From the IMG/VR virus record IMGVR_UViG_3300036770_003181, positions 1-28,680 of that record: 28,680 bases of DNA, one strand, 5' to 3'. The first letter of the stretch is position 1, and every line of letters begins with the position of its first letter. The stretch comes from a virus. Under the pieces are notes generated by a model. It was not told where the DNA came from. It did not search any database and saw nothing but the letters and a program-made list of their open reading frames with translations. Both the position numbers and the translations under genes were made by a program. Below are positions 1,565 through 9,581 of the stretch, one piece after another.

Positions 1565-2137
1565 TTATTCCATGTGCTTCTTCAGGTGCTCTAGATACTC
1601 GTTAACGTTTTTCATTATCTCTGCTTTTTGCTTGGCAGAGTTATTGTTCCAGTCTTCAATAGTTCCGTCTTCAGTAACAAAAGTCATACTTTCGTTTATC
1701 TGATCATCTACCCATTGTTCTAATCCGGTTGCCCAGGCCTGTATATTACCTTGCATCATCTGCTTTTCGTACTGCTCGTATAAGCCGGCCTTGCGGAGAT
1801 TAGCTTCCATCTCGATAGTACAGTCAAAACAAAAGCCATGAATCTTATACATCTTTTTAGCTAAATGATGGTTCATTGAACCGCTACATTTAGGGCAGGT
1901 TAACGGTACTTGAGCTAATTTCTTAGCAGCATCTAACTTAGTAACATTTTGTTTGAGCCCGTTTTTAATAGTCCACGTTCTACCATCTTCCTCCCAGACA
2001 TCACCTTCGCTATGCCTTTCTTTTACTTTCTCATAGCCGGAACCGACCATGGTTCGGGCTGTAAAGTTTTTGGAAATAATGTTACGGGCCCTGTTTACTG
2101 CCCTTTCATCAAATTCCTTCTTCAGATGACTTGACAT
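1565..2137 (-). CDS. Zinc-ribbon phage protein of unknown function
   Basis: This 190-residue protein carries one clear CPKC...CFDC pair (about residues 80-83 and 102-105), consistent with a four-Cys zinc ribbon. Before it lies EGDVWEEDGRTWTIKNGLKQ (about residues 44-63), a Trp-rich stretch that looks strongly conserved in character. The N-terminal ERAVNRARNIISKNF and the charged C-terminal half look alpha-helical. The gene overlaps the HAD phosphatase gene by 29 nt and is followed, 20 nt past its stop, by the next gene with a CTATTTAT motif between. It has no LLxE leader, unlike its neighbours, so packaging is less obvious. I do not recognise a function; nucleic-acid or protein binding through the ribbon is possible. 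Confidence 0.7.
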   Translation of the reverse strand: MSSHLKKEFDERAVNRARNIISKNFTARTMVGSGYEKVKERHSEGDVWEEDGRTWTIKNGLKQNVTKLDAAKKLAQVPLTCPKCSGSMNHHLAKKMYKIHGFCFDCTIEMEANLRKAGLYEQYEKQMMQGNIQAWATGLEQWVDDQINESMTFVTEDGTIEDWNNNSAKQKAEIMKNVNEYLEHLKKHME

Positions 2138-2669
2138 AACCGAGTTTTTTTAATCTTGTAATAACGTTAGACGGGTTTCCGTTTTCCGGGTGGTATATTC
2201 CTACACCTCCGGCAGCATTCCATCTTTCAATTGTATCCTCTCTATCATCGATCAGGATATCATCTGGACCTGAGCATTCCAGGTGTTTTTCTTTAGCTGG
2301 GCGGAAGATGATTGGAGGGATAGGGGTTAGTTCTCTGTTTACCCACTCCACTTTACCATCTCTGGAGGATTGCTCTTCCGAAGGAGCGGTAAGTAGGGTT
2401 GGATTAAAGTCTCGGATATACTCCCATAGGGTTTCGCCGTGAGGAGTCCATTCCATTCCCTCCCAGAAGATCTGTCCGACTGGGGCGATAGCGCTCCAAA
2501 ATCCTCCTACACCTTTTTTCTCTTTGTACTCGTTCGGATGTACGCCAAAGTAGTGGTCAAAGCGTCCAACGAAGTCTGTTAATACTCCGTCCATATCACA
2601 AAAGAGTTTACCTTTTGGTTTTGGATTCTGCTCCTCTTCAGTAAGTAGTAAATCTGCTAACTTGCCCAT
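2109..2669 (-). CDS. HAD-superfamily 5'-nucleotidase-like phosphatase with LLTE leader
   Basis: This is a compact (186-residue) HAD hydrolase. FCDMDGVLTDF (about residues 23-33) is motif I, with the two Asp residues that form the phosphoaspartate and act as acid/base. NPTLLTAPS (about 89-97) supplies the motif II Thr/Ser. A Lys in RPAKEKHLE is a plausible motif III, and DDILIDDREDTIERWNAAGG (about 136-155) is the motif IV acidic pair. The insert GFWSAIAPVGQIFWEGMEW is of the kind seen in 5'(3')-deoxyribonucleotidases, which suggests a nucleotide monophosphate substrate. The first 12 residues (MGKLADLLLTEE) match the LLxE leader found on other proteins here, so the enzyme may be packaged and matured. 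It sits 1 nt after the multi-enzyme gene. Confidence 0.85.
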   Translation of the reverse strand: MGKLADLLLTEEEQNPKPKGKLFCDMDGVLTDFVGRFDHYFGVHPNEYKEKKGVGGFWSAIAPVGQIFWEGMEWTPHGETLWEYIRDFNPTLLTAPSEEQSSRDGKVEWVNRELTPIPPIIFRPAKEKHLECSGPDDILIDDREDTIERWNAAGGVGIYHPENGNPSNVITRLKKLGYVKSSEEGI

Positions 2670-2670
2670 T

Positions 2671-5600
2671 TTATTTTAAGTTTGGAATACCTCCGATTTG
2701 AGGAATTCTAGCTTTCCAAAGATCGTAAATTTTTTGCTTATTTCCAACTGTTATGATCTCTGTATTTACTAGATCATCTAAATAAGCATCAACTACTGTT
2801 TGGAAGTCTTTCTTCTCGTACTTTGATTTAGTATAAAGTCCCTGGATGTTTGCATCTACTTCTTTTGGAAGCATGTAGTACTTGTACCAGCTCTCAGGGT
2901 TTTTACGAATCTCTCTTCTTCTAGCTTCGTCTTTTCTCATCCACTTATCGGGCTTGACCTGGTCACCGGACTGAGTTAGGTGTTCGGTCTCGTGGCGGAT
3001 AAGGTCAGTTAAGGTGGGTTGAATAGTTTGAAGCATATTAGTTCCGTCTGCCGGATTAAATGCTAGCATAATCTCTAATGAACCTTCATCAGAATCAGCT
3101 GCACCATCTACGTAGAAGGTACCGGGCTTAACTTTTTCTGAAAGTGCAAACTTGAGTTCTACCTCTACTGTAGTTGAAGTTCCTTTTTCGCTTTTGCTTT
3201 CAAATTTACCTATGTAGGCTACTTGCTTTTCAGTATTAAGCATTAAACCTAGAGGAGACATTCCATATTCGGCTGCTAGTTTTTCATCTGCTTTTGATGG
3301 CTCTCTCTTAGTCTTTACGTTGTACCCTTTTAGCTTTTTACCGTCCAGAAGGGTCTTAAGAGCAATATTAACTGCCTGTCTAACATCGGCAACGATAGAG
3401 CGGTATTTAGTACCTTCCTTTAGATCTTGGGCAAGGTCCGGGTACTTCTTTTTTAGTACCTGGTGGATTTCTTTCCAAGTTTTCAGGTAAGTGTTCCACA
3501 TTGTTATAGATACCTTAGAGAGAAGATAGCTTTTATTGCTTCCTTCAATACCCTCTTCTTCTGCAAATTTGTCAAATGCTTCTTTAAATGCTGGTAGGTT
3601 TGTAGTTAATTCTCTCCATTCATTTCCCAGAGCAGGATTTTTCTCTTTCTCACGTTGAATAGCAAGTTCAATAAATTGCTTATTAAACTCATCGTTCTTT
3701 TCTAATCCTTTCAAGAATTTAATGTAGGGTTCAGGAGCAACAATGTTTTTAATGTCATCTATGTAGCCAAAGAGCCCATCAATGGCTCTGCTTATAACCA
3801 AACTAATAAGAGGGGCAGCAAGTTTTGCAATGATATTTGCAAGTGCATTTTCATTCACCGGATTATATCCAGACTCGTAAGGAGCTGCTTTACCGTCTTG
3901 AGGATCATTATACTCGTTTTTAACTGAGTCTTCCCACTCTCTCATAGTCATGCTTCCTAAGTAGTGAGCTTCTTTTTCAATCTCGTTTAGGGCAGAATCT
4001 TCCTGGGTGTTTGTGGTAGTGATGAGAGGTAAACGGCCTTCTAGGTTCTGCATATGATGAATCATCTCATGGCAGAAGGAACGTAAAACGTCTTTAGGGT
4101 GACGACCTGTTACATACAGCACGACCTCTTTCTTACTAGGATCGTAGTAAGCAGAGTTACCAAATATGTTAGCAGCGTTTTCTTCATCCTGTCTGGTTTT
4201 GATCTCCGGTAGCGGCATTACAGTCATGCCCTTTCTCACCATGTACTCTAGGATGCTAGCAATGTAAGGAACGTAGTTTATAGCCGCAGCAGTATCTTGG
4301 TACTCCTTAATAGGTTCCTGCTCGGGAGTGTAGTCGGGCTGACCTCCTATACGTGCTTTATTATATAACATAGGGGAAATAACGATAGACTGTCCGTTAA
4401 AATCTACAATCACATCGTCCGGGGCAAGCTTCTGAAAGTAGGAAGTAAGGTTTTGCATTCTTTGACGCTCTTCAGAAGGAAGAACTGCTATCGGTGCAAC
4501 CGGGGTACCCATTGTAACTTCTGCTACTTTGAGCTTAGGGGATGAAGCGTTAGTTCTAAATTCTGGCTCGCTTCTATCCTTGCGCTTGTAGGCTGTAGTT
4601 AGGTACAGGTCTTTTAGGCCGTCGTAATCATAGCTACCCATAGCTGAAGAGATATCAACTAGCTTGGTTAGGTGTGTAAACACTCTGTTAGAATCTTTAG
4701 GAAGATCTGCTAAAGCATCTCCGTATTTGTCGTGAATCTTAGACATCAAGTCTAAAATATCTTCCTCAGTTAATCCTCTTTCTATAACTCTTTCTTTAAA
4801 GTGCTTGGTGAAGTTGATATCAATATCAAGGTCGTCAAACATCGCATCTAAGGTGTCTTCTAGCTCGCTAAAAACTACTAACTCTCCTAAGAAGCTACCA
4901 AATACATCGTCAATAGCTTCGGCCATTTTATACTCCGGAGTTGCTTTTAAAATTCCGAGTACTGCTTTTTTATCATCTGCTGAAAGTTCTTCAGGCATCC
5001 ATTGACCTTTTTTAAGATAATCAGCATCTGTTCTGATTAAGGTAGCAGATAGTTTTTCTTCGTTAATTGTATCCACAAGTTTTAGTTTTGCTTTATCATA
5101 AAGCCCCTTCTTGTTATCTACCAGGGCTTTGTAGCGATCGGTATCTTCTTTAGATGCAATTACTACATAATGATTGTTTTGGTTGGCTTCAATCTCCTTA
5201 TAAACTGAAAGGATAGGGGTGATTGGTGCAATCTCAATTTCGGTGGGTTTGCCTAAATACTTGGCGTAGATCTCCCAGATCTCTTTTGACTGCTGAGCGG
5301 TAACGGTTTCACCTTCTCTAATTTTAGCACCGATGTAGATCTTGATTGAGTTTACATCCTTGGCTAGCTCCTTAGCAACGTAGAAGTGTCCGCGATGAGG
5401 TGGTTTGAAGCCGCCCCCATAAAGTCCGATCACAGTTCCTTCTGCTTCAGTTAGTGTTTGAGCAACTGCCGAAAGAGCTTTTTCTTTATTATCTCCTTTA
5501 GGAGTTCCTACTTCCCCGGATTTAACCGATACCATTGAGCGGAAGATTCCAGCTACGCGGTTCTTACTTCTGGGATTCTTTAAGGATCTTGCTACCTGGT

Positions 5601-6303
5601 CTAGGAGCTTTTCAAACGGCTGATTGAGGTCGAAATCCTTAAGCAAGTTTTGAACGTCCGACCAGTTGTTTGATTTCCAGATCTCCTCTCTTGATACTTC
5701 CTTAAAGTTCTCAAGGGTAACTTTTCTGAGGGTTAGGTTAACACTAGAAAGATTAAATTCGTATTCCTGATTTTTCTCTAGAGCAGGTATGTTTTTGATT
5801 CCTAAACGGGCAAATACTTCGGCTGGATTCTGTTCCAGTAATGCGGTCTTAACTAATCCTAGAATTAGACCCTGCACTTCGGCGGGCAGGTCTAGGAATG
5901 AGTTTTTAAACTGGTGTTCAGTTTCTGAAAGAGAAACCATAATGTCAACCTGAATGGTCTCGTTTGGTTCTCCTTTGATCGGGTAAAGTACCGAAATAAT
6001 CTCTCCAGAATTGTAGTACTTCTTTCCTGTGTACCTTTCGCTTTTAAAGGGAATAATCAGAGAGTCTGGCATCTTAGATACCGCATCGATGATTGCCTGC
6101 TTGGCTACTTTTTTATCATCGTACTCAAAGGTACTGATTATGTCTAGGTCTCCGAAATCGGTCTTAGTACCGGCCTTAACACTGCCGGAAAGGCTAGCTG
6201 TCTTATAGCCAGGAATTTTCTTAAGAACTTTATTCTCAAAATCGTTAAACGTTGCTTGAACGTTCTGCTTTTTAATTCTATTTCCGCCGGCTACTCCGCT
6301 CAT
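2671..6303 (-). CDS. Giant multi-enzyme virion protein: nucleotidyltransferase, HxGH nucleotidylyltransferase, two zinc-protease modules
   Basis: This 1210-residue protein contains at least four enzyme-like modules. (1) Residues 36-125: polymerase-beta-type nucleotidyltransferase, with G40-S41, D52-L-D54 and a third Asp at D120. (2) Residues 290-460: HxGH nucleotidylyltransferase, with GGGFKPPHRGH (296-306) and the C-terminal signature LSATLIR (418-424), as in NMN adenylyltransferase or cytidylyltransferases. (3) About 498-590: HFKERVIERGLTEEDI, possibly a RelE-like fold. (4) About 600-800: zincin with HEMIHH (745-750) and downstream Glu in EIEKEA (774-779). (5) About 1000-1210: second zincin with HETEH (1104-1108) and E1148. 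TLTE|A (283-287), MAE|A (460-463) and VAE|V (593-596) fall between modules and resemble prohead-protease sites. The start overlaps the previous gene by 4 nt (ATGA). Processing and packaging are inferred. Confidence 0.85.
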   Translation of the reverse strand: MSGVAGGNRIKKQNVQATFNDFENKVLKKIPGYKTASLSGSVKAGTKTDFGDLDIISTFEYDDKKVAKQAIIDAVSKMPDSLIIPFKSERYTGKKYYNSGEIISVLYPIKGEPNETIQVDIMVSLSETEHQFKNSFLDLPAEVQGLILGLVKTALLEQNPAEVFARLGIKNIPALEKNQEYEFNLSSVNLTLRKVTLENFKEVSREEIWKSNNWSDVQNLLKDFDLNQPFEKLLDQVARSLKNPRSKNRVAGIFRSMVSVKSGEVGTPKGDNKEKALSAVAQTLTEAEGTVIGLYGGGFKPPHRGHFYVAKELAKDVNSIKIYIGAKIREGETVTAQQSKEIWEIYAKYLGKPTEIEIAPITPILSVYKEIEANQNNHYVVIASKEDTDRYKALVDNKKGLYDKAKLKLVDTINEEKLSATLIRTDADYLKKGQWMPEELSADDKKAVLGILKATPEYKMAEAIDDVFGSFLGELVVFSELEDTLDAMFDDLDIDINFTKHFKERVIERGLTEEDILDLMSKIHDKYGDALADLPKDSNRVFTHLTKLVDISSAMGSYDYDGLKDLYLTTAYKRKDRSEPEFRTNASSPKLKVAEVTMGTPVAPIAVLPSEERQRMQNLTSYFQKLAPDDVIVDFNGQSIVISPMLYNKARIGGQPDYTPEQEPIKEYQDTAAAINYVPYIASILEYMVRKGMTVMPLPEIKTRQDEENAANIFGNSAYYDPSKKEVVLYVTGRHPKDVLRSFCHEMIHHMQNLEGRLPLITTTNTQEDSALNEIEKEAHYLGSMTMREWEDSVKNEYNDPQDGKAAPYESGYNPVNENALANIIAKLAAPLISLVISRAIDGLFGYIDDIKNIVAPEPYIKFLKGLEKNDEFNKQFIELAIQREKEKNPALGNEWRELTTNLPAFKEAFDKFAEEEGIEGSNKSYLLSKVSITMWNTYLKTWKEIHQVLKKKYPDLAQDLKEGTKYRSIVADVRQAVNIALKTLLDGKKLKGYNVKTKREPSKADEKLAAEYGMSPLGLMLNTEKQVAYIGKFESKSEKGTSTTVEVELKFALSEKVKPGTFYVDGAADSDEGSLEIMLAFNPADGTNMLQTIQPTLTDLIRHETEHLTQSGDQVKPDKWMRKDEARRREIRKNPESWYKYYMLPKEVDANIQGLYTKSKYEKKDFQTVVDAYLDDLVNTEIITVGNKQKIYDLWKARIPQIGGIPNLK

Positions 6304-7211
6304 TGTACTTTATACTTTACTAAGTTAGAATCGTCTGGAAGGAATTTACCTTTAAGCTGGAGTCTTTCCTGATTTTTAATCCAGTAATCCTGAAGATCTT
6401 CTGGAATATCAGCTCTTGTGCTATCAAGAATCTTGAGGTAGATATCATAAACCCTGTTAAGATCTTGCTCACTTAAATTCTTCTTCAAAGAATCCATCAC
6501 ACTAAAGTAATTCTCTAGAATTTCAGAAGTGAAGTCTGTTTTGTAGAGCTTGTTTAGGAGTTCGATTGCCTGTGCAGGAGTCGAAGCTTCTACTTCCTGG
6601 GTGTCTTTGTTCTTAACTCCGTAGTTGTGAGAAAAGATATATCCTTTATTTGCAAAGAGAGCTACCAGTAACTGGGTGCGGTGTAGACCTTTTACGTTGC
6701 CTGAATAAACGCTAGAGTAGTATGCAAACCTAAGCCAGTCTACATCTCCTACGTTGATATCAATCTGAACGTTTTTGTCTAGCTGCTCTCCTGCCTCGTT
6801 GTATTGAGGAGCTTGTAAGAACAGAGCACCTGCAGAAGATCCTTTAACGTCTACTGCTAGATCGGTATCAGCATCTTGAATTTTTTCAGCAATAGCTACA
6901 ATCACAGCTCTTTTCATAAGCTGATCTTCCGAAGCTGTTCTTGATCTCTTTTTGAATAGGTCAAAAAGCTCCTGTACATGAGCCTGATCTAATCCCCAAT
7001 CCTCAATCTTATCAAAGCTTTGATTGGAAATAGCTAGATCAATATCTCCAGAAACCTCTTTCTTTCCTACAGATCCTAAAGTTTGCATTTGTCTAAAATG
7101 CGGCTCTGCTTTAGGAAAAAGTCTCTTAAATTCTTTTAAAAAGTTTAAGAGGGTAGGCTTGATGTCCTCCCTCTTAATCTTATCTGTGGTTCCGAATACG
7201 TTTCCTCCCAT
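6300..7211 (-). CDS. Nucleotidyltransferase (polymerase-beta fold)
   Basis: This 303-residue protein has the nucleotidyltransferase signature LGSVGKKEVSGDIDLAI: G46-S47 followed by D56 and D58, with a third carboxylate in VQIDINVG (D151). These are the residues that bind metal and NTP in the family. The N-terminal helix region FLKEFKRLFP parallels the start of the following gene's first module, so the two are likely distant paralogues. The C-terminal half is helical, with no second motif recognised. Candidate acceptors for NMP transfer are tRNA, another protein or a small molecule; the sequence does not decide. The stop overlaps the next start by 4 nt, so the two are probably translationally coupled. 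A CTATTTAT motif within a 39-nt inverted-repeat element lies in the leader. Confidence 0.85.
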   Translation of the reverse strand: MGGNVFGTTDKIKREDIKPTLLNFLKEFKRLFPKAEPHFRQMQTLGSVGKKEVSGDIDLAISNQSFDKIEDWGLDQAHVQELFDLFKKRSRTASEDQLMKRAVIVAIAEKIQDADTDLAVDVKGSSAGALFLQAPQYNEAGEQLDKNVQIDINVGDVDWLRFAYYSSVYSGNVKGLHRTQLLVALFANKGYIFSHNYGVKNKDTQEVEASTPAQAIELLNKLYKTDFTSEILENYFSVMDSLKKNLSEQDLNRVYDIYLKILDSTRADIPEDLQDYWIKNQERLQLKGKFLPDDSNLVKYKVQ

Positions 7212-9014: not shown

Positions 9015-9581
9015 TTAATAGTCAATAAGCTTGAGATTGCCCTTAAAGTCCATCATAATATTATTAAGATCTCCGGTTAGATCTATGTTATCAGTCTCAA
9101 TACCGGCACCTAACATCTCCTTGCGAACTCCTGTAAAAAAATTATGTAATGAGTATTCTCTACCTCCGGCCTGAATCTTATCTGGAGTGTCTTTAAGATG
9201 TTTCTTATCTCCTGTATTAACGTACGCATCAAAGTCGTATAGAACTGATCCGTCTTTTAGTGCGTTATAAATCTCTTGAGGAGCATTTTTAAGGTTTTCT
9301 ACCTGGTACCATCCTGCATTTCCGGATGGATGTTCGTCGGTTTCGCCGATGTTTGCTAGATACTTGAAGGTCTTACCGCTAGCTTTTTGAGCATCTTCCA
9401 TCTCGTACATATCGCTAGTTATTTTATGTACCCATCCTTCAACACCCATATCAAATACGCTTCCATTCTGGCCGTATCCGATCTGTTCACCGTCCAGTTG
9501 TTTGAACTTACTTACAAGCTCCTGGTAAGCTTTATTACCGTACTTGTTGTCTTCAGTTAAAAGAGCTTGTGTCAGTTTCAT
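9015..9581 (-). CDS. Minimal protein-kinase-like protein with LLTE leader
   Basis: This 188-residue protein reads as a stripped-down kinase fold. It has a glycine loop IGYGQNGSVF (34-43), a candidate ATP-binding Lys at K53 (WVHKIT), a catalytic-loop-like stretch DLTGDLNNIMMD (167-178) with D167 and N173/N174, and a metal-binding Asp in LIDY (185-188), which is the very end of the protein. The HRD His is absent, the Asp-to-Asn spacing is two residues longer than usual, and everything after the DFG-equivalent is missing. The leader MKLTQALLTED matches the packaged-protein pattern. It overlaps the GIY-YIG gene by 4 nt. It may be an active small kinase delivered with DNA or a pseudokinase. Confidence 0.7.
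   Translation of the reverse strand: MKLTQALLTEDNKYGNKAYQELVSKFKQLDGEQIGYGQNGSVFDMGVEGWVHKITSDMYEMEDAQKASGKTFKYLANIGETDEHPSGNAGWYQVENLKNAPQEIYNALKDGSVLYDFDAYVNTGDKKHLKDTPDKIQAGGREYSLHNFFTGVRKEMLGAGIETDNIDLTGDLNNIMMDFKGNLKLIDY

Follow-up and report, generated by a model that had tools for sequence, protein, structure and literature searches.

A composite phage protein and its probable processing as head cargo

Polyvalent proteins unite disparate domains, including zincins, pol-beta nucleotidyltransferases and BECR RNases, whose arrangement is shuffled; they were proposed to be injected and proteolytically processed (PMC5512222). In phage T4, the prohead protease gp21 cleaves after L-x-E or I-x-E, as in the internal proteins IPI-IPIII and Alt (PMC9026906). 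These lose a short N-terminal propeptide, and Alt is also cut at its C-terminal side. Head proteins of phages PhiKZ and SPN3US are cut after x-E by the gp21-type proteases gp175 and gp245, with several sites per substrate (PMC10052503, PMC5694885). The protein considered here, P0001, is encoded in a stretch of viral DNA of 28,680 nucleotides (IMG/VR record IMGVR_UViG_3300036770_003181, positions 1 to 28,680), hereafter the window. P0001 consists of five or six separate modules in one chain. With a probability of roughly 0.62, it is a modular head-cargo precursor that a gp21-type protease would cut into separate head proteins, to be ejected with the DNA.

P0001 resembles the polyvalent proteins in that pol-beta, PPAT/NMNAT and zincin-like folds are united in a single open reading frame (ORF). 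The rarity that the preliminary description saw in two metalloproteases beside nucleotidyltransferases is weakened, such combinations being known in polyvalent proteins (PMC5512222). Unlike polyvalent proteins as described, the P0001 family sits in T4-like myovirus genomes. For polyvalent proteins, autoproteolysis by the zincin or a fused assemblin-like peptidase was proposed, whereas the joints of P0001 match a separate gp21-type protease; the HxGH domain is not mentioned in that paper under the names searched (PMC5512222). The likeness to the T4 internal proteins lies in the tag-like N-termini of many ORFs of these phages and of cyanophage HxGH homologues. P0001 itself, unlike the T4 proteins, has no N-terminal tag, and cutting at its joints would release several enzymes instead of removing a propeptide. 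The joint motif also differs from the cleavage motifs of SPN3US (A-x-E) and phiKZ (S, A or G-x-E), where propeptides are removed and enzymatic domains are not separated. The direct homologue gp88 of Flavobacterium phage immuto is annotated as 'nicotinamide mononucleotide adenylyltransferase NadR', which describes the HxGH part only. A search of open-access papers turned up neither a report of enzymatic modules joined by prohead-protease sites nor a matching phage polyprotein. P0001 is probably a variant of the polyvalent and internal head proteins, namely a shuffled head-cargo polyprotein.

Modules of P0001

P0001 is an uninterrupted ORF starting with ATG, and the plus strand is rich in stop codons there. 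This modular protein comes from a far-T4-like phage, a relative of immuto, whose gp88 is the sole homologue found among 50,697 phage records. The motifs quoted in the preliminary description are all in place (GS40-41, DLD52-54, HRGH303-306, LSATLIR418-424, HEMIHH745-750 and HETEH1104-1108). Its separation of the pol-beta-type and HxGH enzymes is borne out by structure models, in which each forms a domain of its own at high confidence. For the HEMIHH region, the matches are to zincins.

Module A has an AlphaFold model of high predicted local distance difference test (pLDDT) score, was matched by Foldseek to DNA polymerase lambda/beta (E 1.8e-7) and is kept in about 20 relatives. For module B, the model of residues 289-460 was aligned by VIA-align to PPAT with Z 13.7 (root-mean-square deviation 3.3, 149 aligned) and to NMNAT with Z 13.1; the module scores 20.8 bits against Pfam CTP_transf_like, just below the cut-off of 21. 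Combining HxGH and SxTxxR motifs with a PPAT/NMNAT fold, it is a predicted HIGH/HxGH nucleotidylyltransferase. An amphipathic segment, KMAEAIDDVFGSFLGE, closes module B after this fold. A PPR-like match of the module, which involved designed repeat proteins, was dismissed as spurious. Distant, unannotated HxGH modules of the same family were also encountered in the 540-kb Prevotella Lak megaphages (hits H21-H34 and H36).

Module C is called only RegB-like, because its match to Pfam REGB_T4 (E 2.6e-4, 19.3-21.5 bits) lies under the curated cut-off of 27 and its model is poor, few sequences being available. Neither module C nor module E gave a match by tblastn against the phage records, and the idea that they are phage-wide families was dropped. 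Module D has an invariant HExxH motif and an invariant downstream E, and at least 538 related stretches occur in IMG/VR. Zincins fill the match list of its model (Wss1, IrrE/PprI, Spartan, ACE and BepA) with middling but consistent Z values of 6-8. In the alignments of module F, RHExEH and KExDAxxQG are invariant or nearly so. The HExxH domains gave only sub-threshold Pfam matches. Foldseek of the C-terminal half against the PDB returned no significant match, and a second structural comparison of that half (VIA) returned zincin matches for module D only. The models have pLDDT below 50 at residues 796-869 and 949-966. Roles of the predicted enzymes in the cell, for example in nucleotide or NAD metabolism, RNA cutting or host protein modification, are a guess based on fold.

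Table 1. Positions in the window of P0001, its modules and joints, and the adjacent gene. A slash in a joint or tag marks the putative cleavage position.
Feature	Position	Strand	Basis or remark
Whole precursor ORF P0001	2671..6303	-	1210 residues; full-length or partial homologues: immuto gp88 and 22 IMG/VR loci
Module A, residues 1-286, pol-beta-superfamily nucleotidyltransferase (GS40, DLD52-54, D120)	5446..6303	-	AlphaFold model, Foldseek
Module B, residues 287-474, predicted HxGH nucleotidylyltransferase (HRGH303, SATxIR419), PPAT/NMNAT fold	4882..5445	-	VIA-align
Module C, residues 475-595, RegB/BECR-like (HFKERVIERG)	4519..4881	-	Pfam REGB_T4, below cut-off
Module D, residues 596-818, zincin metallopeptidase-like (HEMIHH745, EKEAH776)	3850..4518	-	Motif and fold match
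Module E, residues 819-963, helical	3415..3849	-	Sequence, presence or absence as a block
Module F, residues 964-1210, second HExxH domain (HETEH1104, KEVDAN1147)	2674..3414	-	Sequence, presence or absence
Joint 1, TL-T-E286/A	5443..5457	-	Conservation
Joint 2, FL-G-E474/L	4879..4893	-	Relatives without module C resume at FLGE/G or FLGE/S
Joint 3, KL-K-V-A-E595/V	4516..4527	-	End of module C
Joint 4, PV-N-E818/N	3847..3858	-	VNE/N before module E in L020; low-pLDDT region 796-869
Joint 5, DL-K-E963/G	3412..3423	-	Low-pLDDT region 949-966
HAD 5'-nucleotidase, next gene	2109..2669	-	PHROG 2643, E 1e-23; tag-like N-terminus MGKLADLLLTE/E

Exchange of modules and the motif at their boundaries

In the relatives of P0001, modules are swapped as whole blocks at LxE or VxE sites. 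Modules C and E are both missing from immuto gp88 (907 residues) and from the protein of the 173-kb IMG/VR contig G001 (L019) and its kin; this contig, read in whole for comparison, encodes a relative of P0001 at 85% identity. Most relatives lack the whole of module C, which is present in L003, L060, L062, L197 and L199. Module E likewise comes and goes as a block: it is found after VNE/N in L020, an otherwise different protein that ends two residues past LKE, where module F would start. A different HxGH module stands ahead of module D in L004, L021 and L022, and extra HAD, Zn-ribbon and further modules extend L197, L185, L180 and L194 to up to 1322 residues. Modules D and F also exist as stand-alone proteins of about 245-262 residues (IMG/VR L061, L059 and L069; ORFs of about 250 residues such as L147, L161 and L150), that of F in other phages. 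A 1999-residue relative on a 344-kb contig (L024:7424-13420) combines WG-type repeats with the HEMIHH module and a further, second stretch that is nucleotidyltransferase-like, and its parts are separated by LNE/G and LLTE/N.

Aligning 63 non-redundant relatives all against all gave the boundaries of these blocks without use of any motif. Removal of similar windows left 221 breakpoints, many of which are noise from divergent loops. The triplet [LIVMF]xE lies at most 4 residues from 92 of the 221 breakpoints, compared with an expectation of 39.4 derived from the same proteins (z 9.3), a comparison tempered by the relatedness of the sequences, because of which z values are approximate and serve as a guide rather than a probability. 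Other P1 residues with the same hydrophobic P3 reach z 2.8 at most, and E at P1 with the hydrophobic residue at other spacings reaches 3.0 at most. Restricting the count to the 70 breakpoints that lie apart from where modules D and F start leaves the excess in place (35 observed, 12.1 expected, z 7.3). The preferred residues are L, V, M and I at P3 and G, S, E and L at P1', with G the strongest. This motif corresponds to the specificity of T4 gp21. Within P0001 alone, 26 [LIVMF]xE triplets occur, six of them followed by G, A, S or N; as this is not above chance, motif counting within the protein was dropped as evidence; the position of the sites is what matters.

Individual joints

At joint 1, L284 is found in 21 of 21 relatives and E286 in 19, the other two having LLE one residue earlier. 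P1' is A or G there, and the linker that follows differs between relatives in both length and sequence. Where module F begins, all 17 relatives tested have E at P1 and L, I, V or M at P3, in contexts such as VMAE/G, TLNE/G, VLTE/G and SLTE/K. The end of module C is KLKVAE, KLAVAE or KLKVSE in five relatives, independent of what comes next. The joints at 286, 474 and 963 match the L-x-E of gp21 substrates.

Of the module-separating sites put forward in the preliminary description, those at E286 and E595 are true joints. MAE462 was rejected: relatives have KMLSAVD or KMADAID in its place, and the joint is FLGE474, 12 residues downstream. That description had also overlooked the joints at E818 and E963, the RegB/BECR-like module and the helical module 819-963. 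The burial of the sites inside one continuous fold, which it had named as the finding that would speak against its proposal, is not observed, all joints lying at domain edges or in low-confidence linkers of the models.

Prohead protease, capsid protein and targeting tags

The complete relatives, immuto and G001, each have a homologue of gp21, in immuto the protein gp70, in which the catalytic H, S and D of T4 align. Their major capsid proteins carry IVSE/A and IIKE/S, aligned with the T4 gp23 site FLTE/A. N-terminal tags of the form M(6-20)LxE followed by G, A, S or N are in excess in the gene block that holds the P0001 relatives and the head genes, with 13 against 3.5 expected at 100-140 kb of immuto and 10 against 1.6 at 140-160 kb of G001, whereas the rest of both genomes has little or no excess. 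Tag-like N-termini in the window are MKLTQALLTE, MGKLADLLLTE and MKLISALLQE. In immuto (NC_055915.1), the tag MENFDLKKFLVENKLTxNSxLLxE is repeated on four or five otherwise unrelated ORFs (e.g. 1803, 103806, 117631 and 118632) and resembles a reused targeting sequence.

Distant HxGH homologues in two cyanophages begin with MKSYKEFLSEAR and MKSFTSFFTEAR, near the T4 IPII targeting sequence MKTYQEFIAEAR. Cytidyltransferase/NMNAT-like proteins were reported in cyanophage virion proteomes in a 2023 study, whose authors caution on contamination (PMC10665884).

A proposed cleaved head cargo and its alternatives

The proposal is built on the modular make-up, the block-wise exchange between relatives, the specific excess of the motif near breakpoints, the conservation of the joints at 286 and 963 and, in complete relatives, the protease and the major capsid protein site. 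The pol-beta, PPAT/NMNAT-fold, RegB/BECR-like and two HExxH domains and the helical module would be made as one chain, joined by exposed hydrophobic-x-Glu sites. The gp21-type (S77) prohead protease of the phage would cut these joints during head maturation, and the modules would stay in the head as separate proteins and exit with the DNA at the next infection. We infer packaging, cleavage and ejection of P0001 from this ensemble.

Several observations weigh against this proposal. The N-terminus of P0001, MSGVAGGNRIKKQNVQ, has no capsid-targeting tag, and no [LIVMF]xE occurs in its first 100 residues; P0001 is not classed as an IP-type protein because it has no N-terminal targeting propeptide of 10-19 residues ending in xE. 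A tag is present in only about 14 of 43 relatives: 15 proteins, P0001 included, start untagged with the pol-beta module, and about 14 more mostly start directly at the HxGH module. Breakpoints inside modules D and F, the intended control, also have an excess of the motif, if a weaker one (19 against 10.4, z 3.0), and part of the signal is therefore a general property of loops or linkers. P3 is V, not L or I, at two of the five joints (E595 and E818). The window, a fragment, holds no head genes within its 28,680 nucleotides, and the literature search found no virion proteomics of the P0001 family or of immuto. Either untagged proteins carry an internal targeting segment, a candidate being the amphipathic KMxxAIDxVFxxF ahead of joint 2, or not all of them are packaged. 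The polyprotein proposed in the preliminary description thus gains, in its prohead-protease-type sites between modules, the backing of a motif-free comparison, and is burdened by the missing N-terminal targeting sequence. Its observation is largely right, and its reading probably right in kind.

A rival reading takes P0001 as one of the polyvalent proteins of Iyer et al., delivered intact or processed autoproteolytically by its zincin modules, the LxE joints then being zincin sites or no more than linkers. It would fit the fact that zincins are the commonest domain of polyvalent proteins, for which self-processing was proposed (PMC5512222), and both HExxH modules retain their catalytic residues. 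This is unlikely, given that the joint motif is the same as the gp21 motif and the major capsid protein cleavage site of these phages. It recurs in the N-terminal tags of unrelated head-region ORFs and in L023, an N-terminally incomplete protein that keeps the site TFGE/G and has no HExxH in its available part. A slightly less probable account is an uncleaved fusion of modules that were once separate tagged head proteins, the internal tag and site being relics. Modules do exist as separate genes, some of them tagged (the HAD gene at 2109-2669, the stand-alone D and F proteins), and internal segments look tag-like, yet relics would decay, whereas the sites are conserved and the flanking linkers are not (17 of 17 at the start of module F); moreover, an exposed site on a protein inside the head should be cleaved by gp21. 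Least probable of the three is an enzyme with several functions that stays unpackaged in the cytoplasm, its joints being ordinary flexible Glu-rich linkers. The absence of an N-terminal targeting tag and the adjoining primase and exonuclease genes would agree with it. The spacing and residue controls argue against simple Glu-richness, tagged ORFs lie in the same gene block, and HxGH relatives carry a T4-type targeting sequence, such enzymes having been reported in virions.

Genomic neighbourhood

The window appears to be a fragment of the genome of a contractile-tailed phage in which baseplate-like proteins, called so from their resemblance to annotated baseplate genes of immuto, a primase and an exonuclease are recognisable. 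The order primase, exonuclease, gp89, gp88 and NT5C in immuto is that of the window. A HAD domain of the same kind as the 5'-nucleotidase next to P0001 is fused inside the relative L185. Directly upstream of P0001 and overlapping its start, a second GS/DxD nucleotidyltransferase-like ORF (LGSVGKKEVSGDIDLAI) lies at 6300-7211 on the minus strand; Pfam and PHROG searches gave no convincing match for it. Another minus-strand ORF (9015-9581) has the tag MKLTQALLTE/D followed by kinase-like sequence with no family match. Protein kinases were reported in cyanophage virions (PMC10665884).

Significance for phage biology

It is an even bet whether a widespread T4-like lineage, with Bacteroidota as probable hosts, employs the protease of head maturation as a polyprotein processor, with L-x-E joints as the boundaries at which interchangeable cargo enzymes are swapped. 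If the proposed processing of P0001 is true, tailed phages possess, like RNA viruses and retroviruses, a polyprotein strategy, which in their case relies on the capsid protease. The joint motif by itself would then suffice to find phage-injected enzymes in sequence data, in a family whose metagenomic members number in the hundreds. The processing of large injected polyvalent proteins, a long-standing question, would become directly testable in a cultured phage (immuto, Flavobacterium sp. LMO8).

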